This document shows positions 18,067-36,858 of a stretch of DNA of 49,068 nucleotides, piece by piece. The stretch is from Lewinella cohaerens DSM 23179 (lineage in GTDB: Bacteria > Bacteroidota > Bacteroidia > Chitinophagales > Saprospiraceae). The stretch is from positions 88,488 through 137,555 of the forward strand of contig NZ_KB903531.1 of assembly GCF_000379805.1 (NCBI RefSeq). Reading direction: 5' to 3'. The position numbers and the translations under genes are program-made. Position 1 is the first letter of the stretch; every line of letters starts with the position of its first letter. The notes beneath the pieces are model-generated. The model was not told the origin of the DNA and did not search any database. It saw nothing but the letters and a program-made list of their open reading frames with translations.

Positions 18067-21000
18067 ATGAACAATATCCCACGCTACTTCTTCTTATTCT
18101 GCTGTTTGCTGATCACCCTTCAAGTGATTGCACAGCCTACAAATTGCCTGGATTTTACTGAACCAGAAATCGGCACAACCTTCAGTCAGGAGAATGGCAA
18201 CACCCCTGACGAAGTCGTCTATCAATATGATGGTGTGAACCTGAGTATGGGTTTTTTCACGGATCAGAATGGCAATATCAATTTTGATCGAATCGAGGTG
18301 GTTGATCCTTTTATTGAAGACTTCACGGCACCTTCTCTGTATATCAATTATTCCACTGCTACTTTTGAGTATGCCAATTTGGTAAATACCTTATGCTTCA
18401 CGGGTTTCCTTAGCGGCCATGAAATCAATTTTGGCATCAACGGTGAAGTAGGTGTCTTTGAAAGCCTTCTAGATCCTAACATCCAGGAAGAATGGCCTGA
18501 TTATGAGATCATTATCACTTCTTTAGGAAACACTGCAGGAAGTTTAGTATCAGTATGCATTTTTGGCCCAATCGAAACATTCACCATTGGCGGCATTGAG
18601 TTTTTATTGGATGATGTTTGTACCGATGAATTTATCAACTGCGCCTTCAATGAACCCAACTTACAGGCTTTTTGCCAAAACAGTGGGGCTATCGGCCTTA
18701 GTCTGGACTTTGGTGCTATTATAGGTGCCAATGATTTTGTTGACGTCTATATTGAGGATGAGCTCTACGACTTCTACCCTACCGAAGCCTTTCCGCTTGT
18801 GCTGGAAAATGCCATTCCTTCCGGGCAACAAAACACCGTGAATGTTACAGTATGTATAAACGATATCCCTGAATGCTGCTACACCGAGGATATAGCACTC
18901 CCTACGTGTATCGACGAAAGCTGTATCACCTTTTCAGAGATAATACCGGGAACAACCTATGATCCTGACACAGATGTAGAACCTGGTGATGTTATCATGG
19001 AATTTCCTGGTGTAAATGTGAGCATGGGCATCTATAACAACGCAAATGGCGGTAGTGAGTTTGATGAAATTCGAGTTATCGAACCCTGGATTTCCAATCT
19101 TGATGCACCTTCCATGTACATCAACTTTGCCACTGCGACCTTCTCCTACTCCACACCGGTAACCTCTGTATGCTTTAATTCAACCGTAAACAACTTACCT
19201 ATAAATTTTGGGATCAATGGCACCGTTAATGTTTATGACAACTGGTTAAATCCAGATTTACTAACAGCGTTTCCTAACCACGTTATTACTGTTACACCTT
19301 ATGGCCCCAATGCTAATGGGCTGGTGAGTGTGTGTATTTCCGGTATTATTGAAGACTTTACCATCGGTGGAATTGAACTACTGGTGGATGACGTCTGTAG
19401 CTACGACCCTGTCTGTGACATCAGCAACTTACAAGTGCTACAATACAACTGCCAGGAAGATATTCAACCTTACCGTTTTCTCCTTACGTTTGATCACAAC
19501 CGAGCGCCACTAGACTCTTTCAACCTGCGTATTGGTGGCGAATTTTATGGCCGTTATGCTTATGCCGACCTCCCCCTTAGCGAACTAGAAATTGAGGTCG
19601 CTCCAGGCACAGCGCTACAATTCCTAGTCCGTGATGTAAATACAGAAAATTGTGCCGAAGACCTTACCGTCTTAACACAAAGCTGTGAGTCCGTCTGTGA
19701 TAATTTTGCGGCAACGATTCTTGGCATAGAATGTGCTGGCCCAGAGGGTTATCAAATTTCGCTGGTTATCACTAGTCCTATGGTTGGCCAATATGTAACC
19801 ATGGAAGGGCTGAGTAATGGTATCATTTACGGAGGTGCTCAAACACACCCTTCTATGGTACAAATTGACCTCTTCGGAACACCTGACCCTGAAGGTTACA
19901 TCCTCGCAGATAGTCTTAGCGGATGTTCTACCATCATAGGGCCACTGGATTTCAACCCGGAAGACTGCTACCAGTGTGAACTATATGATGTCGTTATTGA
20001 GCCTACAGATTGTAATCCCAACAACGTTTATGGTGTAACCATTGATCTGATGAGCACCAATGATTCTGAGCCTTTACTCATAATTCTAGATGATGATCAA
20101 ACCTTTGGGCCTTTCTTTCCATCAGAGTTCCCAGTGACCGTAGGTACACTAATTGGCAATCCGAATGAGGTTGTTACTGTTGAAATCATCAGCATTAATG
20201 GCCAATGCTCCTACTTTACTGAATTCATCCAAAACTGCCAAGACTGTCAAAACTTCCAGGCAGAGCTCGTCAATATCGAGTGTTTTTCCGATGATTCTTT
20301 ATTAGTACAACTATATGTTTACGGTATAGAAGAAGGTGAGCCTTTAAGGATTACGAGCAGCGCTCATCCTGATTTCGTCTACGAAGGCTTATTCGTATCC
20401 AATCCTATAGCATTGCTTCTGCCACTCGCTAATGTCAATTCTTTCTCCCTTTTTGTGCAAGCACAGGGTATTGATTGTGAGACACAAAGTAATCATCTTG
20501 AAGTACCTGTAGGCTGCGGAGGTCAATGTTCCGACTTTATTGCCGAGCCTCTGGGACTTGACTGTGACCCCAATAACTTCCTTCATGTTTCCTTTGAACT
20601 CTATGGTATTGAACCAGGGGAACCACTACGTATTACAACAGGCCCTCCCTCCAACACCTTCATTACAGAGTTGACATTCTCAGGCAACCCTATTCAGGTT
20701 TCAATACCTCCTATAGTAGGGCAAGATGTGCTCACAATTGTGGTGCAAGCCCAAGGAATTGACTGTGAAACCACCTTGTCCTTTACCATTCCAGAGGATT
20801 GTATGGACGGTTGTAACAATTTCGCAGCTGACATTCAATTTATTGAATGTTACGAAGACCTTCCTTATGCCAGCTTGTCCATTCTATTAACAGGAGTAGA
20901 CGCAAATGGCCAAGAAGTGCTCATACAAAACACGAGTACCGGCACTTTCTACGCTATTCAACTGACGACGAATCCTTTTGTGATCCCTTGGCCAACAGCT

Positions 21001-24000
21001 GATCAAGGAATACTACAGATCACAGAACTTGGTAACGGCTGTAGTACAGAAGTTGCCTTTAATGCACCATCGGATTGTAGTGATAACTGTGACGGGCTGT
21101 TTGAGGTGATTGAGGTATTCTGTACCGAAGGAAACCCTGCGTTTGTTTTCACTGCTCAAGGTCCAACAGGTCTACCCTTCTTTGTACGTGCAGGAGGCCA
21201 AGAATACCCCTTTGTATACGGACAAGACAGCTACGAATTAATCATCGACGGAGATGTTGGTGTATTCAGCTACGAACTCCGCTTCCGCGACCAACAAGCG
21301 GGATGTGTACAAGAAGTATTGGTAGATAATCCTTGCTTCTGCTTTATAGAAATCATCTCTGCTACACCAACAGAGTGTGATGATAATGGGCTATTCTTTA
21401 TCGATCTAGAATTCGAAGCATTAGTGAGTTGGGACAATGGCCTCTTCGTCTTAGAAGCAGGTGGCTATACTCAAACTTTTGAGCAAGGTTTTATAAGCAC
21501 CACCATCGGTCCATTCGAAAGTGGCGTAATTGAAGTTATTCTTACCGAAGTTACAAGTTTAAGTTGCGCTGAGTTTATTGCTGTCGAGCAGTTTTGCGAA
21601 CCAATAGAATGTGAAACCTCTAACCTCGTCATTGAAGGAACCAATTGTAATGCCAACGGCGACTATTTCCTAGACGTTGATTTCGACGCCAATATTGATG
21701 GGCCATTCGTGGTACTTAACGAAGCTACCGGAGAAAGCCAGACCGTTACATTGGATCAACTTCCCGTGCAGTTTGGACCATACAATATCAATGAAATTCA
21801 AACGTCGCTGATTATTGTTTACTACGAAGCTACGAATAGCTGTACCATTGAAGAACTCTACGTTCACGAATGTGAATTCGAATGTCCGCTACAAGAGATC
21901 ATTGTTACAACCACAGACTGTGACCCTAATGGCCTTTATCAGGTTATCGTAGGTCTTGAAGCATCCGATAACGGACCATTTACCGTAATCAATACGGAAA
22001 CAGGAGATTCATTTACCGATGTTTCCATCAATGATTTCCCGCTAACATTTGGGCCTTACAGTGCCGATGAGTACCCTGCCTCCTTAATCCAGGTTATTTA
22101 TTCGAATGCTCCTTTTCCATGTATTCTTGGAGCGGATTACGCCATTGATTGTGGCACCGGCGGCGAATGTGACTTCAACGATGTCTTCGCAGAAGCTTAC
22201 GACTGTGACGGCGACCAATTCATGGTAGACGTGGCCTTTAACAACCCCAACGGTGGGCCATTAGGCTTCTACATCTTTGGTGACGGGATGATCTTTGGTC
22301 CATTTGCTTATGGCGAACCGTTCTATACTTTCGGCCCTCTTGATGGCAGTGAAGAAGAACATGACATACTTCTTCTTGACATTGCCAGTCCTGCTTGTTT
22401 TGGCAACTACAACCTCAACTACAGCTGTAGCGACGATTGCAACATTCAGCAGGTAATTGCGACGCCTACTGAGTGTGACGGAGAACTATTCAACGTTGAA
22501 TTAAATGTAATTGGCAACAACTTGGGAGAAACCTTTGCAGTAGTCGGAAACGGCAATAACTACGGGGTCTTCAATTATGCTGACTTACCTATTCTGCTCG
22601 GTCCTTTTGAAGGAGATGCAACGACCAGCTACGAATTTGGTGTGATCGATTTACAAAACCCTGGTTGCACCAATTTCACAGAAATTGAACCTATTAACTG
22701 TCTTCCTTGTGATATCCGTGATTTAGTTTACGAAGTTGACTGTGGTAATGACACTTACTCATTGACGCTTAACTTCATCTACGAGAATCCGGAAAGTGAT
22801 GGCTTCCGACTACAGATAGGTGGCGAAACTGTTGAATCTTTCGCTTACGCTGAATTACCCATCACGATCACTCTCCCCTACGCTATTAATGGAGAAATCA
22901 TTCGGGTAGAAGATTTCACAAATGAACTTTGTGGAGAAACCATCGACTTCGAGGTACCTTGTTGTTCATTGGGCAACATCATCAACGAACTTGAAGTAGC
23001 TGACTGCCAGGATAATGGTGAATACTATTTCACGGTAGGCAACTTCAACGGTGGCAACCTTAGTGATTCACTCGTGATCAATTATGCACCAGCAGGTAGC
23101 AGTATTATTGCTACAGAAGTTGTTGCATACAGTAGCCTTCCTGTTTCGATTGGGCCTTTAGCCGGCGACGGTGCAACCTCTTATATCGTGGTGCTCAATG
23201 ACCAGGAAAATGAGTGTGCAGCGACAACGACCATTGAACCTGTCTTCTGTGATAACGATGCCTGTGTAGAGTTTGAAGGAGTAGAGGGTGTCTTTGCCCC
23301 TGCCTTTGGCTACGACTCCGGTGACGTAATTACGGTAGAAAACGATGTAATTCTGACCTACGAACGCAACCCGAGTACCAACTGTGCCTGTAACCTGTTT
23401 GTAACAGACGGTATTCCTGGAATTAGCTTTGGGAATGGCCATATCGTAGCTACTCAGAATTCTGGCTTCGGGCTCAATTTTAGCCAAGTGAATACCACTT
23501 TCAATACTGTAAACATCGACTACTATTATAATGGTGGTGAGTTTGGTATCAGCGTGAATGGGCAAACAGCTGCTATTGTAGGCAACATCAACGATATTCC
23601 TTTGAATATTGCCCCTGGTGTGGAATTACAAGTAACTCCTGACGCTAACAACCCTGGAACAGGTATGTTGACCTTCAGTGGAGACAACATTGAGACGATC
23701 CTGCTCTTTACGGATGACAGTGCAGGATTCGACAATGTTTGTATGAGCCTTGATGACAACGTGTGGCCAGGTGATACCAATTCCGACAACATCGCCTCAC
23801 ATGTGGACTTGTTGAGTATTGGTCTGACCTTTGGAAATACCGGACCTTCACGTAACGCTATGACCAGCGAATGGGCGGGACTGATCAGTCAGAACTGGGG
23901 TGAAAACTTCGCTGACGGAACCAACCACAAGCATGCTGATGCAAATGGTGACGGTGTCGTAGACATGGATGACATTGAAGTATTGGAGCAGAATTACGGT

Positions 24001-24759
24001 TTAGAACATGGCCCGACGACTATCTTCGAGCCACTCCCCTACACCGATCTTGATCCTCCGATTTTTGCAGACCTTAGTGAGAATGATCAACTTCCAGCTA
24101 ACACTGTAGTAGAAATACCTGTAGTAGCAGGAAGCCCTGATCAAGATATCCAAAATATCTACGGACTAGCGTTCACCTTGGAGCTTGACCCCGAAATTTT
24201 CAGCATGGGCACCTTGGAGGTTATTTACCCAACCTCTTGGTTTGGAGAACCAGGCATCAATACAGCGACTATTCATCAGGTTTACCCTGATGGCCGTGTC
24301 GAAGTAGCGATCAGCCGCACCGACCATAACAATGTCTCAGGTTTCGGCCCGATCATGTACCTACGAATTATCATTGATGATATTGCTGGTGTAGAAGTCC
24401 CTACGGAAGTAGTAGTGAAAAACCTACGGGGTCTCAATCACGAGGAAGAGCCCCTGGTATTGCGCCCTGGCACCAGCACTGCTATAGTAACAAAAACCGA
24501 CGATGGTTTTGATCGAAATGCACTGATTGACTCATTTGGCATCTTCCCGAATCCAGCAACAGATTGGGTGCACTTCCAAAACCAGTACCACATGGCTCCT
24601 AACAGAATTGACATTTTCAATGCTGCGGGTCAGCACATACAAAGTCTGAAAGAGCCAGGTATGCACTTAGATGTAAGCCTCCTGCCAGCAGGCGTGTATA
24701 TGCTTCAGGTACACCTGGAAGGCCATATTTTCACGGAAAAACTGGTAAAACTTGATTAA
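18067..24759 (+). CDS. Giant secreted Cys-rich repeat protein with dockerin-like module and T9SS sorting domain
   Basis: 2230 residues. A signal peptide (to about residue 22) is followed by two copies of a ~190-residue beta domain (about 27-230 and 262-445), both with SMG-F/IY, APS-YINxxTATF, INFGINGxVxV and a closing TIGGIE-LxxDDVC. Then come about fourteen Cys-bounded units of ~91 residues starting at C450, 544, 637, 727, 821, 916, 1008, 1092, 1182, 1273, 1368, 1458, 1548 and 1633; each opens C-(x)n-E/D-C-D/N-x-N/D-G and ends with a Cys near the next unit. A related beta domain starts at C1733. A dockerin-like pair of calcium loops follows (GDTNSDN from 1902; ADANGDGVVDMDD from 1957), then a cohesin-like or Ig-like stretch, and the T9SS type A sorting domain from about 2157 (FGIFPNPATDW). 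It is probably exported through T9SS to the cell surface; function unknown. Confidence 0.9.
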   Translation: MNNIPRYFFLFCCLLITLQVIAQPTNCLDFTEPEIGTTFSQENGNTPDEVVYQYDGVNLSMGFFTDQNGNINFDRIEVVDPFIEDFTAPSLYINYSTATFEYANLVNTLCFTGFLSGHEINFGINGEVGVFESLLDPNIQEEWPDYEIIITSLGNTAGSLVSVCIFGPIETFTIGGIEFLLDDVCTDEFINCAFNEPNLQAFCQNSGAIGLSLDFGAIIGANDFVDVYIEDELYDFYPTEAFPLVLENAIPSGQQNTVNVTVCINDIPECCYTEDIALPTCIDESCITFSEIIPGTTYDPDTDVEPGDVIMEFPGVNVSMGIYNNANGGSEFDEIRVIEPWISNLDAPSMYINFATATFSYSTPVTSVCFNSTVNNLPINFGINGTVNVYDNWLNPDLLTAFPNHVITVTPYGPNANGLVSVCISGIIEDFTIGGIELLVDDVCSYDPVCDISNLQVLQYNCQEDIQPYRFLLTFDHNRAPLDSFNLRIGGEFYGRYAYADLPLSELEIEVAPGTALQFLVRDVNTENCAEDLTVLTQSCESVCDNFAATILGIECAGPEGYQISLVITSPMVGQYVTMEGLSNGIIYGGAQTHPSMVQIDLFGTPDPEGYILADSLSGCSTIIGPLDFNPEDCYQCELYDVVIEPTDCNPNNVYGVTIDLMSTNDSEPLLIILDDDQTFGPFFPSEFPVTVGTLIGNPNEVVTVEIISINGQCSYFTEFIQNCQDCQNFQAELVNIECFSDDSLLVQLYVYGIEEGEPLRITSSAHPDFVYEGLFVSNPIALLLPLANVNSFSLFVQAQGIDCETQSNHLEVPVGCGGQCSDFIAEPLGLDCDPNNFLHVSFELYGIEPGEPLRITTGPPSNTFITELTFSGNPIQVSIPPIVGQDVLTIVVQAQGIDCETTLSFTIPEDCMDGCNNFAADIQFIECYEDLPYASLSILLTGVDANGQEVLIQNTSTGTFYAIQLTTNPFVIPWPTADQGILQITELGNGCSTEVAFNAPSDCSDNCDGLFEVIEVFCTEGNPAFVFTAQGPTGLPFFVRAGGQEYPFVYGQDSYELIIDGDVGVFSYELRFRDQQAGCVQEVLVDNPCFCFIEIISATPTECDDNGLFFIDLEFEALVSWDNGLFVLEAGGYTQTFEQGFISTTIGPFESGVIEVILTEVTSLSCAEFIAVEQFCEPIECETSNLVIEGTNCNANGDYFLDVDFDANIDGPFVVLNEATGESQTVTLDQLPVQFGPYNINEIQTSLIIVYYEATNSCTIEELYVHECEFECPLQEIIVTTTDCDPNGLYQVIVGLEASDNGPFTVINTETGDSFTDVSINDFPLTFGPYSADEYPASLIQVIYSNAPFPCILGADYAIDCGTGGECDFNDVFAEAYDCDGDQFMVDVAFNNPNGGPLGFYIFGDGMIFGPFAYGEPFYTFGPLDGSEEEHDILLLDIASPACFGNYNLNYSCSDDCNIQQVIATPTECDGELFNVELNVIGNNLGETFAVVGNGNNYGVFNYADLPILLGPFEGDATTSYEFGVIDLQNPGCTNFTEIEPINCLPCDIRDLVYEVDCGNDTYSLTLNFIYENPESDGFRLQIGGETVESFAYAELPITITLPYAINGEIIRVEDFTNELCGETIDFEVPCCSLGNIINELEVADCQDNGEYYFTVGNFNGGNLSDSLVINYAPAGSSIIATEVVAYSSLPVSIGPLAGDGATSYIVVLNDQENECAATTTIEPVFCDNDACVEFEGVEGVFAPAFGYDSGDVITVENDVILTYERNPSTNCACNLFVTDGIPGISFGNGHIVATQNSGFGLNFSQVNTTFNTVNIDYYYNGGEFGISVNGQTAAIVGNINDIPLNIAPGVELQVTPDANNPGTGMLTFSGDNIETILLFTDDSAGFDNVCMSLDDNVWPGDTNSDNIASHVDLLSIGLTFGNTGPSRNAMTSEWAGLISQNWGENFADGTNHKHADANGDGVVDMDDIEVLEQNYGLEHGPTTIFEPLPYTDLDPPIFADLSENDQLPANTVVEIPVVAGSPDQDIQNIYGLAFTLELDPEIFSMGTLEVIYPTSWFGEPGINTATIHQVYPDGRVEVAISRTDHNNVSGFGPIMYLRIIIDDIAGVEVPTEVVVKNLRGLNHEEEPLVLRPGTSTAIVTKTDDGFDRNALIDSFGIFPNPATDWVHFQNQYHMAPNRIDIFNAAGQHIQSLKEPGMHLDVSLLPAGVYMLQVHLEGHIFTEKLVKLD

Positions 24760-29110: not shown

Positions 29111-29113
29111 AAG

Positions 29114-29185
29114 TGACCCGTACGGGATTTGAACCCGTGTTACAAGGATGAAAACCTTGCGTCCTAACCCCTAGACGAACGGGCC
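29114..29185 (-). tRNA. tRNA-Glu(UUC), gene 3 of the cluster in transcription order
   Basis: 72 nt without CCA. Acceptor GGCCCGT pairs with ACGGGTC (one G-T wobble). D arm GTCTAGGGGTTAGGAC, anticodon arm CAAGG-TTTTCAT-CCTTG with anticodon TTC, T arm ACGGG-TTCAAAT-CCCGT, discriminator A. No CCA is encoded, which is usual in many Bacteroidota. Confidence 0.95.
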
Positions 29186-29249
29186 TCGACGTTATTCTAA
29201 CTAAATAGAAAATTGTCAATTTCTTTTGCGCATTTAACCTTACGCTTGG

Positions 29250-29321
29250 TAGTCCGTACGGGAATCGAACCCGTGTTACCAGGATGAAAACCTGGCGTCC
29301 TAACCCCTAGACGAACGGACC
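29250..29321 (-). tRNA. tRNA-Glu(UUC), gene 2 of the cluster
   Basis: 72 nt without CCA. Acceptor GGTCCGT pairs with ACGGACT (terminal G-T wobble). Anticodon arm CCAGG-TTTTCAT-CCTGG, anticodon TTC; T arm ACGGG-TTCGATT-CCCGT; discriminator A. It is nearly identical to its neighbours except in the acceptor and anticodon stems. Confidence 0.95.
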
Positions 29322-29450
29322 TCATTTGATCCTGGCTGCAATGATACTACAATATTTTGATTCTCCTATATTTTTTATCTCCAAAGTCTATCGAAAACAA
29401 AAAAATACTCGAAAAAAGATGTTGCATCTACAACCAAAACAGAAAACCAG

Positions 29451-29522
29451 CAGCCCGTACGGGACTCGAACCCATGTTTCAGGAATGAAATTCCTGCGTC
29501 CTTACCGCTAGACGAACGGGCT
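29451..29522 (-). tRNA. tRNA-Glu(UUC), gene 1 of the cluster
   Basis: 72 nt without CCA. Acceptor AGCCCGT pairs with ACGGGCT, so the first pair is A-T rather than G-C. Anticodon arm CAGGA-ATTTCAT-TCCTG, anticodon TTC; T arm ATGGG-TTCGAGT-CCCGT. The discriminator is G instead of A. It is the most divergent copy and the first transcribed. Confidence 0.92.
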
Positions 29523-29816: not shown

Positions 29817-32800
29817 CTATTGTTTTATCAATTGCTGAATCAACAACTCGTTCTCCTTGCTGATTGCTCGAAGGACATAGACCCCGTTTGGTAAATCCGA
29901 AATATCTAACTGAAACGACTGCACTGCTCCTTCCATCCGAATTTGTTGTACCATCCGCCCTTGGAGGTCAAATACTTCTACGGCTTCAAAATCAGTATTG
30001 GTTTCCAACCAGACCGTAACCTGACCACTAGTGGGCGTCGGATACACTTCTGCATTCAGTTTTACAAGATCATCCGCGGCGACCATACAGGTACCACATT
30101 GGAGCAGGTTATAGCTATCCGTTTGCACACACGTCGTCACACCGTCAGTACAAGTCACTTCAAAGGTAAAGGGGCCGCTCCAGGTAGGATCTACGGTTAG
30201 CGCTAACCCTGTTTCTCCTGGCAGTAAAACACCATTGTCGTACCACTGGTAAGTACAGTTAAAACCAGCTATCGGATACAAGACAATACCTTGTAGCGTA
30301 ATCGTATCACAATTGCATCGGAAACAAGGCCCTACTGCATAAACTTCCATCGGCGGAGCCAAAGTCACCACGGGGCTCTTTACACGTTGCGGACAACAGC
30401 TGCTTTCTATAATGCAATAGTAATTTCCACCCAAGCTACCTCCTGCCGGCGGCGTATAGGTGTATGTCGCGGTCGTCGTCGTATGCACTGAGGTGTGGAT
30501 CAAACTCCCTCCCTGGTACCAAAACACGGTGTAAGTACACCCTACCGGAGCCGGCGATGGCGCAAAATCAACTTCCAAATCCACCGAAGTCGGCGCGCAT
30601 ATCGGACTATAATCTGCAGTAAAATTATTGACAACCAATGGATCTATAATATCCAGGAGCAACTCTATTTCGTCAGCAGGGCATACGCCATTGGTCTTCT
30701 CTACTTTCACCCAGGTATCTTGGTACAGGCGATTGGTAAAGTACAAGGGGTTGCGGTCACCATTCGTAGGTAAGGCGGTGTAGCTGCTATTCGAGATTGG
30801 ACGAATAAACCAATCCCAGCGCGCTGGCTGTCCGGCACATTCAGGCATATACTCTAGCACCGCATCTTCGCCATAACACAGCGGATTAGTATCGGGTGGC
30901 AACAATGTCAGCGTACCTACCGGAGCAGCTTCATTATCCAGGCGGATCGTAGCCGAACAGCTTTGATCACCGCAGGCTGGCGAGCTTACTATAACCGTAT
31001 ACACATAACTCTGAGAGCAATCCGTCGCCGAACCGGTAAAGCTCAGCGGTCCTGGCTGATAAGTAGGATTGGTCGCTCCTGGGATAGCGTTCCCATTAGG
31101 ATCGTACCACTGGAGGGTATACGTACAGTTCGGCGTAGTCGGGTTCAAGGTCACCACCAAAGGTGCGGGCGTAATCGGGCTACCGGTATAGCAATAGGCT
31201 TGGTCTGCCACACTACAACTTACCGGTTCGCACAAGGTAATCGTCACGATATTAGAAACCAGCATCGTACAAGGTCCAGCTCCAGCGCCCATCACTACTT
31301 CGGCGTAAACACATACGTCACCACTGTGGTACTGAGGAGACAGCGTCAACGGCGAACAACCATTAGTTACCTGAAACGGCAAGCCCCAACTTGTAGGCGG
31401 ACAAGGCGCATCAGCCACGTACCAGCGAACTTGTTGGACATCATAAAGCGTATTGCACCCCAACAGCGGAATTTGTACCGTTCCATCCGTTTTACATACT
31501 TCCTGTGGGGCCACCCTAATCTCTTTACAACACGGGGTCGCAAAAACAATAGGAAAGGAGCAACTGTGAGTACTCCCATCAGGACAAATACAGTTGACCG
31601 TTACCGTAATCGCAATACTATTCGGCATTGGCGGCGCTGCCACATCTATCAATCCGGTCACCGTATAGCCAGGGCCAGTACCACTTACGGCCACGTTGCT
31701 AATCGTAACACCAGCTTGGCTAGTACTTACACTTACCGTACAGCCTCCCGCGCCTGCGCCCGTAAGGTCAATCACATCTACAGAAAAGGCAAACTGATCA
31801 TCCACAGCAGTACATTCAATAGACTCGTTACCAACCTCCGCACATTCGCAATCTACGGTAATGGGAAAAACGCAAGTGGTCTGGTTCCCTGCCATATCTG
31901 TAGCCGTGCAGGTCACCATAGTGGTTCCACATGGGAAGAAATCGCCGCTATTGTGGCTACAAATGTAAGTCACCATTGGGCAATTATCCGTCACCATCGG
32001 CGGGTTAAAGTTGACAATACTCCCCCCTGCGCAAGCCGGTACCGTCACGTTGATCGAGTCCGAGCAAGTAATCATTGGCGGCTCCATATCTTCTACCGTA
32101 ATGGTATAGCTACAGGTCGCCATCTGTCCTTTGCTGTCCTCGGTTACGCAGGTGATCGTAGTGATACCTTTATTCAGTACCACCGGCGAAATGGCTGGAC
32201 CACTGGTAGCACCAGACATCGTACAACTGTAAATAAACATCGTGGTACAATCGTCTGTAGCCATAGGGTCTGTCAATGCATAGGTAGCGGTACACAAGTC
32301 CGGATCAGTAGGAATGGTCACACTCTGTGGACAATTCAGCACCGGAGGGTTATCCGTCACAGTTACCGTCTGCTGACTAGTTGCCGCACAGCCGGTAGCA
32401 TCCGTTATAGTGAGACAAACCTGATAAGTACCTGTGCCCGGTAAAGTAGCCGTCACGTTTTGCCCCGTAAAATCGGGCGGACTGCCGGGTAGGTTATCAC
32501 AATTGATGTCCCACTCGTAGGTAAACGGCCCTGTTCCCGTAGCAATTCCCGTCAATTGTACTTCACAACAATCGGCTGTCCATGTAAAGTCAGCCGTACA
32601 GGCCACCATCTCACAGAAGTCATTACATCCATAACCAGGGTCGTATACAGCATACTGAAAAAACGAAGGTGGCTCCGGCAGCAGCGTATTACTCACCATA
32701 AACGGCAGCTGATTGATGGAATAGGCTTGCTCTACCTGCACAAAATCCTCTGCACAAGCATTCGTCATATTCAAATCAAAACTACCGATCAACATATCGT

Positions 32801-34355
32801 AATTCCCAAAACCTGAAGGGTTGTTCTGGCGGGCATCAGCATAAAAGATAGCATCATGATTAGCCTTTACCGAAAGGTGGGGTTCATCAAAAGCCGTTTC
32901 GTTATCATACAGGTATTTGTAAAAAACATCATTGAGCACAAAACCACCAATACCATTGATATACGACAGGCTATGCACCACATGGTAGTTCGGGTCTGCC
33001 CCTTTTTTCCGGCCTACCGTATACAGGTTACCCTGCAATCCATCACGGCCAATCTCTCTAAAGACACTCACACCAGGGAAACGGAAGCCCGTGATAACAT
33101 TGTAGTTGGAGCGGTCAATGATGTATACCAAAGCCTCGTCTGTACCAAAGTCAGTACCCGCCAGCGCTACCTCACCGTTCTGCACGTCTACCCCATCGTA
33201 CAAATCTATCACGCCTGGGTAGTAGGCCCTACCCTGCCAGGCGCCCGTCAGTCCGTTTATATCAATCAAAATTCCTTCGTTGCTACTGCTCCCAAAACTG
33301 GAACCATTGCCCACCAAAAACAGCGAGCCATCATTGATCGGCACCAGTCCCCGGTAAGCTTCGATCTCCACACCAGCTTGGTACTCTTGCGCCCAGTTAA
33401 AGGTCAAATCTGCGGCAAAGTTATAGACCACAGGCACATCAATTCCCGATGGTGTCGGTGATGGATTTTTCCGTCCCAGCACATAGTACGGAAAAGCCGG
33501 ATTCGCAGGATTGGGATGTCGCACTATGCGCGTAAAACCTTCCCGGCCATTCTGGTCATAAACCTTACGCAAACCAGGGTTCCCAAAATCATCCATCTTC
33601 AATATAAAGGAGCGGTCACTGGCATTTTGGCCCGGGCCGGTACTCACCCCTCCGACTACGCCCACCAAAATCAGCTCATCGTTCGGCGCATCGTATTCCA
33701 AGTCCGTGATCCTGCCGGGAAACTCTAGCAATCGTTGCCAAACCAAAGCACCACTCGTCACCGAAAACTTGCTCATCGTAGGATACACCACACCCGACAT
33801 ATCCACCTGATATCCAGCAACATAAACACCATCAGTAAAAGCTTTAATTCGGGCAGGGCGATTATCCAACGTATCACCATACAGCTTCGCCCAAGGGGCT
33901 GCATTTGGGCAATTAAGCGGCGTTTCCGTAAAACCACCACACTGCTCGCCGCTCGGGTTACTCACCGTCACTTGGGAAGTAACCACCCCTGCAGACAGGT
34001 CTTCAAAACAAACAACGCCCAGTGTAATCACCGTCCCAGGGGCCGTCAATCCTACCAGATTGCCACTATAACTTATCGTCGCAATACCCGTAATCGGGTC
34101 AATAGTAGTCGAAAAGCCCGGCAAGTTAATCGTTACACTTTCTACCTTTCCCGAAAACGCGGGAAGCACCGTTGGGTCAATCACCAATTGGTCATACAAC
34201 GAAGTCGATGGATCACAATTAGGACCAAAAAACAACTCCAAGTCGCCACAACAATCACTCGTAGGCACTATCTGGGCATCACAGCTACATTGAGCATAAA
34301 GTGCACTCCCTGCCCACCACAACAGTAGGCCCAGCATATATTTTATCGTTCGCAT
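29817..34355 (-). CDS. Large secreted protein with PKD-like, HYR and Ig-like domains and T9SS sorting domain
   Basis: 1512 residues. Signal peptide [22 protein letters not shown], then [14 protein letters not shown]. Residues ~140-580 form a beta-propeller-like stretch of repeated short strands ([39 protein letters not shown]). A PKD-like domain follows at ~585-668 ([24 protein letters not shown]), then two HYR domains at ~670-755 and ~755-837 ([31 protein letters not shown]), and several Cys-rich Ig-like domains. The C-terminal ~80 residues (from [13 protein letters not shown]) are a T9SS type A sorting domain that ends with [23 protein letters not shown]. It is probably surface-exposed or released, in adhesion or substrate binding. 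It sits directly downstream of the LamG protein gene, in the same direction. Confidence 0.88.
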
Positions 34356-34515
34356 TTTTTATTTTTTATTTGGGCGTGCCCCTATCGGGTCGCTATGCTT
34401 CGGGGTTCGGCCCAGGGCCTCAGCTTCGCCCACCTCATCGGCGGGCTCGTCCTCCCTTCGGTCGCCCCTGCGCAGCGCTCACGCGTTCATCAACAATTAT
34501 TTACCAAGTCCCTCT
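34356..34515. other. GC-rich intergenic patch between the two large extracellular genes
   Basis: A run of GC-rich short complementary pieces (CTTCGGGGTTCGGCCC, CGGCGGGCTCGTCC, CTTCGGTCGCCCC, GCGCAGCGCTCACGCG), similar in style to those near 9.2, 41.05 and 42.05 kb. No clean terminator with T-run was seen, so the two large genes may be cotranscribed. Confidence 0.5.
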
Positions 34516-36858
34516 TTAAGGGTTCTTATCACAAGGCACCACTGTCCGTTCGGCTTCTCCCACACAGCCGGTCAGCGTATCGGTCACGATCACCTTGTAG
34601 GTCGTTCCGGTAATGGCAGGAGTATCGGTCAGGGTACATACCGCAGACGCAGGCCCTTGGGAAACATTATCTATAAACCATTCGTAGCTCAGCGGACCAG
34701 TGCTACTACATATCGTATAAGAATCACAAGCAGACAGCGTGATCGGGTCACCTAGGCTGGCACACTCGTTGGGCGTGATTGGGCAACTTAGTACCGCCAC
34801 CGTTTCACACACTTCCAGGCAAAACTGCGGGCCTTCTACTGTTTGACACCCATTACTGGCCTCCAACCAATAGCAGCCACCAGCAGTGGCCGAAATACTC
34901 GTTCCCGTCCCAATCGGCAAGCCATCTAAATACCACTGATAGTTGACCCCAGCTTGAGGGCTATTCACCATCAAGGTTTCTGGCAAATCTTCCAGGCACA
35001 CTTGGTTAATACCACTAATCGTTGGCACAAGTGGTGCCGAAATGAGGCGTATTTCCAACCAATCGCTATAGCAAGGATCACAAGCAGATGGGCTCGACAA
35101 AGGGTTACATTGTATCCGGTAATAGATGCTCGTAGCCGCAGGCGGCCAGAGGTAACTGGGCAGAATATTGGTATTCTGCAAACTGTTGGATAGCCCCATA
35201 TCTGTCCAAACAGGTGTGCCTGTACCAGGATTCGTAAAGGTGTACTGCCACTGCGGGATACAATACTGGAAAGGTGTAGCAATAGTCAACTGTGCATCAT
35301 TGCCTGGGCATATTTCGTAGACCAGCGGCGTAGCACTCACCAGGTTCAAGTTGGTAGGCGATCCCAATGGTGCTCCATCAATGGTGCCACAAACAGGCTG
35401 AGGGTCTACCATCACACACTGCGAGAACACCGCCAGTTTCCCCTGACAGTTGCGTACTTCTGCTTCAAAACAGTAGCTCCCCGGTACACCACCCGGAGGA
35501 AAAGGAGCCGTCCAGTTGTTGTAGGTCAAGCTCGTTTGGTTAAACGCTGAAGGAATCGGAATTCTACCCGTAGCAGGATCGTTAAAAAACCAGTCGATGG
35601 TCACATTGGGTCCGGGTGTACTTACAAAGGGATCGCTTGCATTTAGGGTCACCTGAAAATTTACCAACTCGCCTTCACAGAAAGGTCCCGACGGCACGAT
35701 GCTAATGGTTGCTGGCCCAATGGGGCAACAGATTTGCAAGTCGTATTCGTCACTTACATAGGTACACTGCAGCGCTCCCGGGCCACTCACTGTGCTTACA
35801 GCACGGTATTTCCGATCAACAAACCCTTGGCTACCAGCACTGGTACAATCTGTCGTGAGTATCCCTGGCAAAATCGGAAAACAAAAACCCGTAAAAGGTG
35901 GGCTCACTAAATTGCTCCATAGCGTTCCACCGTTATCAGAATACTGCCATTGTACATTTACATTGCCAAAAGGGCCAGGCGTTTGGCCATTGTCATACAA
36001 ACAAAAGTGGGCTGGATCGCCATCACAAATGCCGGTAAGCAAATTGTTTCGGTAAGGGTAGTCTCTAATCTCCAGACTTAGGTTGTGCAATGCCGGATAG
36101 ACCAATGGCCCAGGTAAGGCCACAAAATTGCTCGTTGATCCTGTGAGACCAAAGTTGATGATGTTGCCATTGTTTCCGTTTCCAGAAAAGTCCATGACCT
36201 GCGTCAAAGAAGTATTGACTCCTCCGGGTACAATCGTTGTTTCATCAAAAGTCCAATAGGCAAACAAATTGCTTTCGTTGCCGGCTAATGGGCAATTCAA
36301 GCGGCCGCAAATCTCTGCCGGGATAAGTGCAGTATCCCAAATACGCAATTCATCTACCAGCCCCTGCCAATCAGCGGCAGCGGCAGCTCCACCTGGCCAG
36401 CGTCCCAGTCGGAAGTTGGTAATATTAAAAGTGTAAGCGGCCAAAGAAGGCGTACTTCCTACCAACACACAGTCTAGATAGAAATCTATCTGGGCGCCAT
36501 TTTTCACCAATGCCAAGTGCTGCCAAACATTGACGCCAATAGGCGTAATGTTATTGACTCCCGTGTTATTGAAAACACCTCCCTGGATAAAATAGACGAG
36601 CTGGCCGCCCAATTGCCCCACTTCTATCCGGGTATTGGTGCCACCAAAACTAAACAGTCGGCGAAACTCAGTAAGGTTGGTATTTTGGGGATTAAACCAG
36701 CATTCTACCGTATAACTGGCAGGATTTCCCGCAAGAGAAGTAGCAACAAGCGGCAATTGAATAAAATCGTCTGCATTGCGTTCAAAGTGAAGCGCATTCT
36801 GGCCAGCTACTACTTGCCAGCTACAGCACAGTAGCAATAAAAATTTTAGGGTTTTCAT
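34516..36858 (-). CDS. Secreted LamG/Ig-like protein without a visible sorting domain
   Basis: 780 residues. Signal peptide MKTLKFLLLLCCSWQVVAGQ is followed by a LamG/concanavalin-A-like domain at ~20-215 (ALHFERNADDFIQLPLVATSL, YTVECWFNPQN, WQHLALVKNGAQIDFYLDCVLVG, VDELRIWDTAL), a common sugar- or protein-binding jelly-roll. Beta-rich Ig-like modules with paired cysteines then follow to the end. The protein stops at LTGCVGEAERTVVPCDKNP without the Por-type sorting domain found in the next gene, which is odd for a protein of this type. It may be a lost C-terminus, a non-T9SS exported protein, or a partner of the downstream protein. The upstream 330 nt hold its own promoter region. Confidence 0.82.
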   Translation of the reverse strand: MKTLKFLLLLCCSWQVVAGQNALHFERNADDFIQLPLVATSLAGNPASYTVECWFNPQNTNLTEFRRLFSFGGTNTRIEVGQLGGQLVYFIQGGVFNNTGVNNITPIGVNVWQHLALVKNGAQIDFYLDCVLVGSTPSLAAYTFNITNFRLGRWPGGAAAAADWQGLVDELRIWDTALIPAEICGRLNCPLAGNESNLFAYWTFDETTIVPGGVNTSLTQVMDFSGNGNNGNIINFGLTGSTSNFVALPGPLVYPALHNLSLEIRDYPYRNNLLTGICDGDPAHFCLYDNGQTPGPFGNVNVQWQYSDNGGTLWSNLVSPPFTGFCFPILPGILTTDCTSAGSQGFVDRKYRAVSTVSGPGALQCTYVSDEYDLQICCPIGPATISIVPSGPFCEGELVNFQVTLNASDPFVSTPGPNVTIDWFFNDPATGRIPIPSAFNQTSLTYNNWTAPFPPGGVPGSYCFEAEVRNCQGKLAVFSQCVMVDPQPVCGTIDGAPLGSPTNLNLVSATPLVYEICPGNDAQLTIATPFQYCIPQWQYTFTNPGTGTPVWTDMGLSNSLQNTNILPSYLWPPAATSIYYRIQCNPLSSPSACDPCYSDWLEIRLISAPLVPTISGINQVCLEDLPETLMVNSPQAGVNYQWYLDGLPIGTGTSISATAGGCYWLEASNGCQTVEGPQFCLEVCETVAVLSCPITPNECASLGDPITLSACDSYTICSSTGPLSYEWFIDNVSQGPASAVCTLTDTPAITGTTYKVIVTDTLTGCVGEAERTVVPCDKNP

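Follow-up and report, generated by a model that had tools for sequence, protein, structure and literature searches.

A T9SS-exported repeat protein with a dockerin and a cohesin in one chain, from an apparent family of surface stalk proteins

The window, which is the whole stretch of 49,068 nucleotides analysed here, contains an open reading frame at 18067-24759 that encodes a signal peptide, 15 repeat units, three related domains of ~160 residues, two calcium loops, a cohesin and a T9SS sorting domain. The protein looks like a member of an unnamed family of surface stalk proteins, and is organised as follows.

18067..24759, + strand: whole gene (open reading frame), T9SS stalk protein of 2,230 aa
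18067..18132, + strand: signal peptide, residues 1-22, judged by eye from the sequence
18145..18621, + strand: N1, Cys-bounded beta domain of ~159 residues, residues 27-185
18640..18909, + strand: unit 1, a six-Cys variant, residues 192-281
18922..19398, + strand: N2, second copy of the ~159-residue domain, residues 286-444
19414..23250, + strand: 14 four-Cys FN3-like units in tandem, residues 450-1728 (units 14 and 15 modelled)
23263..23742, + strand: C1, third member of the N1/N2 domain family, residues 1733-1892
23755..24015, + strand: extended dockerin-like module, residues 1897-1983
23773..23808, + strand: calcium loop 1, residues 1903-1914 (D11 and D22 invariant in a 34-sequence alignment)
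23938..23973, + strand: calcium loop 2, residues 1958-1969 (D66, G69 and D77 invariant in the same alignment)
24058..24492, + strand: cohesin domain, residues ~1998-2142
24541..24756, + strand: T9SS type A sorting domain, residues 2159-2230

The sorting domain exceeds the cut-offs of both profiles, PF18962 (E 3e-9, 37.4 bits, cut-off 27) and TIGR04183 (E 5e-11, 42.5 bits, cut-off 23), and the genome encodes the T9SS protein SprA (SprA_N, E 5e-137, 458 bits, cut-off 27), in agreement with the export route proposed by the initial annotation. The latter also described ~14 Cys-bounded units of ~91 residues that open with C-x(5-9)-x-C-D/N. The regular repeat and its cysteine framework stand, but there are 15 units of 83-96 residues, one between N1 and N2 and 14 in tandem, each with four cysteines and not just a bounding pair, and they open with C-x(10-13)-C. 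A pattern picked after inspection of the protein, C-x(9-13)-C-x(55-72)-C-x(5-13)-C-x(0-6)-C, occurs 15 times, against a mean of 0.03 and a maximum of 1 in 1,000 shuffles of residues 186-1732. An independent tiling also returned 15 units (mean of 2.0 and maximum of 4 in 50 shuffles). All four cysteines are kept in 482 of 491 complete distinct units (601 distinct units minus 110 lacking a letter at one of the four Cys places); C2 alone is lost in nine, and C1, C3 and C4 in none. Joint losses give no disulphide pairing, because C2 is the sole cysteine ever lost. By reasoning from the FN3-like strand order, C1-C3 and C2-C4 would be the only short-range pairing.

Two consecutive units were modelled with an FN3-like fold (best Foldseek E 9.6e-5), and superimpose on two tenascin FN3 domains with a TM-score by target of 0.57 and an rmsd of 5.3. 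The unit model also matches further Ig-like arrays, SiiE among them. The units thus resemble a known Ig-like or FN3 family in modelled fold, but not in sequence, with no fn3 match at E<=0.1 in any of 57 units scanned with Pfam. The same scan bears out the view that the unit is not a named domain: nothing scored better than E 0.009, by TcaA_3rd_4th in two of the 57 units. The best match to a known PDB sequence was at E 0.34.

As for the domains at the two ends of the repeat array, two N-terminal copies had been recognised, but they span ~159 residues instead of ~190, and are separated by the unit at 192-281. The related domain that had been placed ahead of the calcium loops is C1, and profile searches assign it to the same family: profiles seeded from the N-terminal pair and from C1 gave 114 and 113 matches, respectively, which adjoin each other in nearly all listed architectures. 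Domains of this type had no NCBIfam match at E<=0.01, and their best Pfam match was at E 0.017, in one of 30. A PDB match to the fucoidan lyase FdlA (E 3e-4) was discarded because its alignment begins in an apparent cloning tag and its score as a domain is only 0.0014.

We found ten orthologues at the same locus, with 9-23 units each by tiling, which suggests a stalk of varying length; these tilings leave some gaps of 82-98 residues, possibly missed units, and for the two longest orthologues shuffled sequences yield up to 8 units. The same 487-aa gene diverges from the orthologue in all ten other chosen genomes, although in one of them (L110) the match covers only 38 residues at the edge. There is no evident operon partner: the upstream gene is divergent, and the downstream one, of 150 aa and without Pfam match, adjoins the stalk gene in just three of the ten other genomes.

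The base of the protein starts with the module that had been described as a double calcium loop of dockerin type, and this description holds. The first and last ligands of both loops (D11, D22, D66 and D77) are invariant in 34 sequences, and AF2 models the loops as two loop-helix units with pLDDT of 97-98 (the calcium ion is absent from the model). The loop starts are 55 residues apart, ~20 more than in a second dockerin type. PF00404 (Dockerin_1, cut-off 22.9) gives 17.3 bits in the protein scan and 23.6 in the six-frame scan, and at E<=0.1 it finds 53 of the 77 aligned tails; six-frame scans of 14 control genomes show matches in nine as well, and in two of them over the cut-off.

The modelled stretch that leads from the calcium loops to the sorting domain adopts a cohesin fold (Foldseek E 2.3e-11 to the cohesin-FN3 double module 2w1n; TM-scores by target of 0.77-0.83 to 6kgd, 6kgf and 2vo8). 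The base thus combines a dockerin and a cohesin in a single chain, the latter 14 residues past the former. This cohesin is absent from the initial annotation. PF00963 has no match at E<=1 in the target itself; at E<=0.1 it finds 39 of the 77 aligned tails, with a best E of 1.6e-6. The domain aligns by hhalign with cohesins of its own genome at 90%, over 40 columns; control pairs gave 0.2-2.9%, except 13.5% for units against end domains. For this comparison, 15 of the 17 post-dockerin stretches were placed in two profiles (nine, with L225 added, and six; L245 and L246 were left out).

A cohesin trails the dockerin by 8-21 residues in 111 of 112 distinct dockerins, a linkage that is favoured because the loci were found using the whole tail. 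When cut copies are included, the count is 130 of 131, the single miss being at a contig end (segments with X and short tails were left out, and cut copies of one protein were counted apart). Searches with the dockerin only found a cohesin behind nine of ten in this genome, the tenth being a 20-bit match in a different kind of protein, and behind five of five in the other genomes drawn from the same family (the fifth via L284). Over all 39 dockerins examined, 20 lacked a recognisable cohesin, including the weak own-genome match; outside the family most lack one.

Covariation also links the two halves of the pair. The top 200 pairs by corrected mutual information include 35 dockerin-cohesin, 6 dockerin-CTD and 5 cohesin-CTD pairs (out of 12,040, 6,192 and 10,080 possible), and re-pairing of the dockerin rows lowers the first number to a mean of 0.2 (maximum of 1 in 30 runs). 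This analysis used 206 sequences, few for the purpose; they are what was left of 284 tail rows once 78 that had gaps in dockerin or cohesin, or were identical to others, had been removed. The contrast is weaker by mean-field DCA (41, 12 and 23 pairs in the top 200), half samples reproduce only three or four dockerin-cohesin pairs, and the top-ranking one (16-209) partly marks a subfamily. Within the cohesin, strands 3-8, 3-6 and 2-7 covary, in agreement with the strand order of cohesins. Among same-genome paralogues, dockerins were matched to the right cohesin in 55-57 of 97 cases against 26 by chance; controls gave 24-42 of 97 for dockerin-CTD and 39-47 of 97 for cohesin-CTD.

These results lead us to favour, with modest confidence, a cell-surface, adhesin-like stalk with a calcium-dependent base, in which the dockerin and the cohesin pair either inside one chain or across like chains. 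The T9SS of this Saprospiraceae-like bacterium would export the protein to the surface, where it would be attached. Its C-terminal end would stay at the cell, while a stiff, oxidised stalk would keep its N-terminal domains well away from it, and the protein might thus act as an adhesin or a spacer. The dockerin would bind calcium and pack on a cohesin, either in its own chain or in an identical one, making the base rigid. Against this reading, a mere stalk base does not explain the existence of near-minimal dockerin-cohesin-CTD proteins, and neither a ligand nor a fold family emerged for the N-terminal domains.

The initial annotation had suggested docking onto another surface protein. It is possible, though less probable, that the dockerin plugs into foreign surface cohesins, or the cohesin takes foreign dockerins, the stalk being one strut of a cellulosome-like network or coat of T9SS proteins. 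The near-minimal proteins fit this view, and the search of the genome for cohesin-like partners gave 27 matches to PF00963 at E<=1, of which 18 exceed the cut-off, along with 32 to PF00404 (16 individually over the cut-off). Among the loci fetched, dockerins of the second type have an in-frame cohesin behind them in 12 of 17 cases (one of the 12 weak, at 12 bits). Several proteins carry multiple cohesins (four in L062 and L189, five in L195, four and a weak one in L188), and L062, which has a target-type tail, adjoins two small overlapping dockerin frames without cohesin. Yet the covariation within chains and the paralogue matching favour the own cohesin, from which the dockerin is separated by a short and ordered linker (pLDDT of 96-98 at residues 81-110, in an AF2 model of the three-domain base with pLDDT 94 and pTM 0.81). 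Since the cohesin sits directly behind the dockerin in the same chain, pairing in cis or like-with-like is no less probable than docking onto a different surface protein.

We consider it unlikely that the base is a fused structural spacer of an ordinary T9SS adhesin, with binding wholly lost and no docking role: the wider loop spacing and the low Dockerin_1 score in the protein scan, though not in the six-frame one, would fit, but the calcium ligands are kept and the dockerin-cohesin pair is conserved across genera. It is very improbable that the protein is gliding or predation gear, an adhesin driven by the T9SS motor in the manner of SprB or of the hooks that have been reported in Saprospiraceae, since, even if giant T9SS repeat proteins are typical of such gear and the genome is rich in SprB repeats (at least 150 matches), the unit is not one of them (hhalign 3.6%, no Pfam SprB match) and Pfam finds no gliding family in the ten neighbouring frames scanned.

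If the favoured pair works within one chain, one of the strongest protein plugs known would be put to an unusual use, and one that becomes testable. If it works between chains, it would be part of a surface assembly system, of which we found none described for these bacteria among the matches listed from the open-licence literature. More doubtfully, Saprospiraceae might have a calcium-dependent surface network distinct from cellulosomes, in which T9SS proteins with either of two dockerin types have a dockerin-then-cohesin base in common, daisy-chain with one another and with multi-cohesin scaffolds, and so join stalks, adhesins and near-minimal dockerin-cohesin proteins into a coat. In either case, a class of this genome's surface proteins ends in a dockerin and a cohesin. 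One paper states that cohesins and dockerins were not found, as in other Bacteroidetes genomes (PMC5831590), and another that, in the species under its study, neither dockerin nor scaffoldin belongs to the cellulolytic machineries (PMC6247017). Here, the Pfam cut-offs are exceeded by 18 cohesin and 16 dockerin matches.

Several known systems resemble parts of this protein. Its units share the seven-stranded fold and head-to-tail array of FN3 tandem arrays (tenascin 1qr4, fibronectin 6xay), but have four conserved cysteines each and no match to the sequence family. They are, like SprB repeats of T9SS gliding adhesins, T9SS surface-protein repeats of similar length, but show no profile similarity to them. 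The target does not look like a cellulosome component, as Pfam finds no enzyme or carbohydrate-binding module in it; of scaffoldin traits it has a single cohesin and no CBM at E<=1. The scaffoldin-like protein of the Cloacimonadota 'Ca. Stygibacter' has cohesins and a conserved C-terminal domain from which its authors inferred surface attachment (PMC8542988); it shares the cohesin and the C-terminal attachment domain with the target, but has tandem cohesins and separate dockerin enzymes where the target has a stalk, one dockerin and one cohesin. Finally, the cellulosomal pairs of C. thermocellum CipA/OlpC and their kin show the same cohesin fold, dockerin-type loop-helix pairs and strand pairing. 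In contrast to them, the target has the dockerin and then the cohesin on a single chain, with 14 residues between them, loop starts 55 residues apart, no Pfam enzyme domain, and a T9SS sorting domain at its end.

Our analysis indicates that the gene at 18067-24759 (+) encodes a 2,230-residue member of an unnamed family of T9SS stalk proteins, whose role is most likely that of adhesins. T9SS export and the following architecture are well supported, and the stalk role is proposed because of this anatomy.

N-terminus, before residue 27: signal peptide
Residues 27-185: Cys-bounded end domain, first copy
Residues 192-281: single repeat unit (unit 1), between the first two end domains
Residues 286-444: Cys-bounded end domain, second copy
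Residues 450-1728: fourteen tandem units
Residues 1733-1892: Cys-bounded end domain, third copy
Residues 1903-1914 and 1958-1969: two calcium loops
Between calcium loops and sorting domain: further beta domain (cohesin by predicted fold)
Residues 2159-2230: T9SS sorting domain

Pfam matched the sorting domain and, weakly, Dockerin_1. The upstream neighbour is divergently oriented, and none of the ten neighbouring frames scanned was named by Pfam as an export partner. Calcium binding, disulphides and ligand binding are presumed properties of the protein. Elsewhere in the window, 29817-36858 (minus strand) holds two more large surface-type proteins: one (1,512 aa) combines HYR and PKD with a T9SS sorting domain, and the other (780 aa) pairs a LamG-type domain with an Ig_7 domain; three consecutive tRNA-Glu (ttc) genes lie at 29113-29522.

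All units except unit 1 follow the four-cysteine pattern C-x(10-13)-C-x(59-69)-C-x(9-13)-C, and the protein has 15 units against 0.03 in shuffled sequence. Across relatives, all four cysteines are present in 482 of 491 complete distinct units, the remaining nine lacking only the second. Unit 1 is a six-cysteine form with an extra pair, one cysteine lying before the third and one directly after it. Across the relatives, 154 units have the complete pair, 334 have neither of its cysteines and 3 have one of the two (correlation 0.99), joint behaviour that makes a third, optional disulphide very probable as a prediction from sequence. The AlphaFold2 model of units 14-15 and the domain that follows them has a pLDDT of 91 and a pTM of 0.56, so that inter-domain angles are not fixed; Foldseek matched this model mostly to fibronectin-III arrays (best E 1e-4). 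The units had no match in Pfam or among PDB sequences, and the idea that they are SprB repeats was dropped for want of a profile match. SprB repeats themselves have at least 150 matches in this genome (150 of 451 candidates scored), spread over many giant proteins. Of 296 genomes sampled across the phylum, 5 contain the units; four of these, including this one, belong to the same family, so the units are rare outside it.

The divergent upstream gene adjoins the orthologue in all ten other genomes chosen for comparison, the match in one locus (L110) being a 38-residue edge only. By tiling, the target has 15 units, three same-genus genomes have 13, 10 and 23, and seven others have 9-17 (means of 1.2-3.5 in shuffled controls); the stalk thus differs in length between genomes that share the locus. 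A profile scan of loci, which undercounts units (11 for the target), recognised 2-26 units per protein and found units with the target-type base in 58 distinct proteins (71 frames before merging cut copies). Relatives that carry a name are labelled Lewinella, Phaeodactylibacter or Saprospiraceae, many being metagenome bins, and this genome is placed by reference to these relatives. Where the start is visible (n=36), the first domain is an end domain in 21 and a unit in 15; an end domain directly precedes the base in 29 of the 58.

The region after the calcium loops is, by its modelled fold, a cohesin. The base model found cohesins at E down to 2e-11 (Foldseek), and covariation joins strands 3-8, 3-6 and 2-7, matching the strand pairs of known cohesins. 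Among 77 aligned tails, 39 matched Pfam Cohesin at E<=0.1, the best at 1.6e-6; the target itself had no match. The dockerin-like module before it (dock) is extended, its loop starts lying 55 residues apart versus about 35 in the genome's other type, and it occurs at E<=1e-4 in 34 of 296 genomes of the phylum. Searching this genome by dockerin alone gave 10 matches, of which nine have the cohesin; the remaining one scores 20 bits and lies in a protein of a different kind. A recognised cohesin follows 19 of 39 docks examined; of the other 20, one is the 20-bit match, two adjoin the sorting domain directly and 17 precede a stretch that was not recognised. As a profile, nine of these 17 stretches plus a weakly recognised one resemble both cohesin kinds (81 and 82%), and six further stretches score 69% to the target's kind and 9% to the other.

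The base probably pairs with itself. AlphaFold2 gave it a pTM of 0.81 over 338 residues with an ordered linker, which suggests domains in a set arrangement. In an alignment of 206 sequences (effective 198), 35 of the top 200 pairs by corrected mutual information link the dock to the cohesin, against 6 that link the dock to the sorting domain and 5 that link the cohesin to the sorting domain, and random re-pairing of dock rows left a mean of 0.2 dock-cohesin pairs among the strongest 200. Mean-field DCA gave a weaker contrast (41, 12 and 23, respectively). The ten best dock-cohesin pairs outscored both controls in six of six half-sample runs. Among paralogues within a genome the right cohesin was assigned to 55-57 of 97 docks, with 26 expected; under all three settings this matching did better than the two controls, which were themselves above chance in five of six cases. 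Covariation and paralogue matching thus make the pairing look chain-specific at the sequence level, which would hold alike within a chain (cis) or between like chains.

Cohesins and dockerins abound in this genome, with 27 and 32 matches at E<=1, of which 18 and 16 are individually over cut-off. Of 14 control genomes, two have matches to the cohesin model, which exceed the cut-off in one, and nine have matches to the dockerin model, which exceed it in two. In the loci examined, which cover part of the genome's dockerin matches, 12 of 17 second-type dockerins are followed 78-87 residues on by a same-frame cohesin (one weak), which makes a dockerin followed by a cohesin a common order in this genome. 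Three proteins in these loci bear 4, 4 and 5 cohesins. Four of the genome's nine target-type tails belong to near-minimal dock-cohesin-sorting domain proteins (frames of 379-430 aa), and the matches listed include at least 23 such proteins in frames of 360-423 aa; those at the own-genome loci L064, L065, L206 and L207 and among the matches listed (~360-430 aa) have hardly anything besides an N-terminus, a dock, a cohesin and a sorting domain. Larger proteins also occur. The 1,326-aa protein of locus L062 (contig C24:291000-297500) carries four cohesins and two SprB repeats together with a target-type tail; beside it lie two small overlapping frames that bear a second-type dockerin but lack a cohesin. 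L188 (C1:142251-149723), about 4.7 kb past the window end, has a frame of 2,491 aa that combines a second-type dockerin with four cohesins and a weakly matching fifth. In the 3,432-aa frame of L067 (C4), a dock-cohesin lies some 30 residues after the start and is followed by Kazal-type domains and SprB repeats. At L199 (C36:13023-13169) an in-frame stop interrupts the dockerin and the cohesin lies in the next frame, reflecting either an assembly error or a decayed gene.

PMC5831590 reports finding neither cohesins nor dockerins, in line with other Bacteroidetes genomes, and PMC6247017 describes dockerin and scaffoldin proteins as absent from the machineries treated there. The former statement does not hold for this lineage. 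PMC8542988 proposes, for Cloacimonadota, a scaffold of cohesins whose C-terminal domain would attach it to the surface, and by that proposal the link between a cohesin and such a domain is not new in itself.
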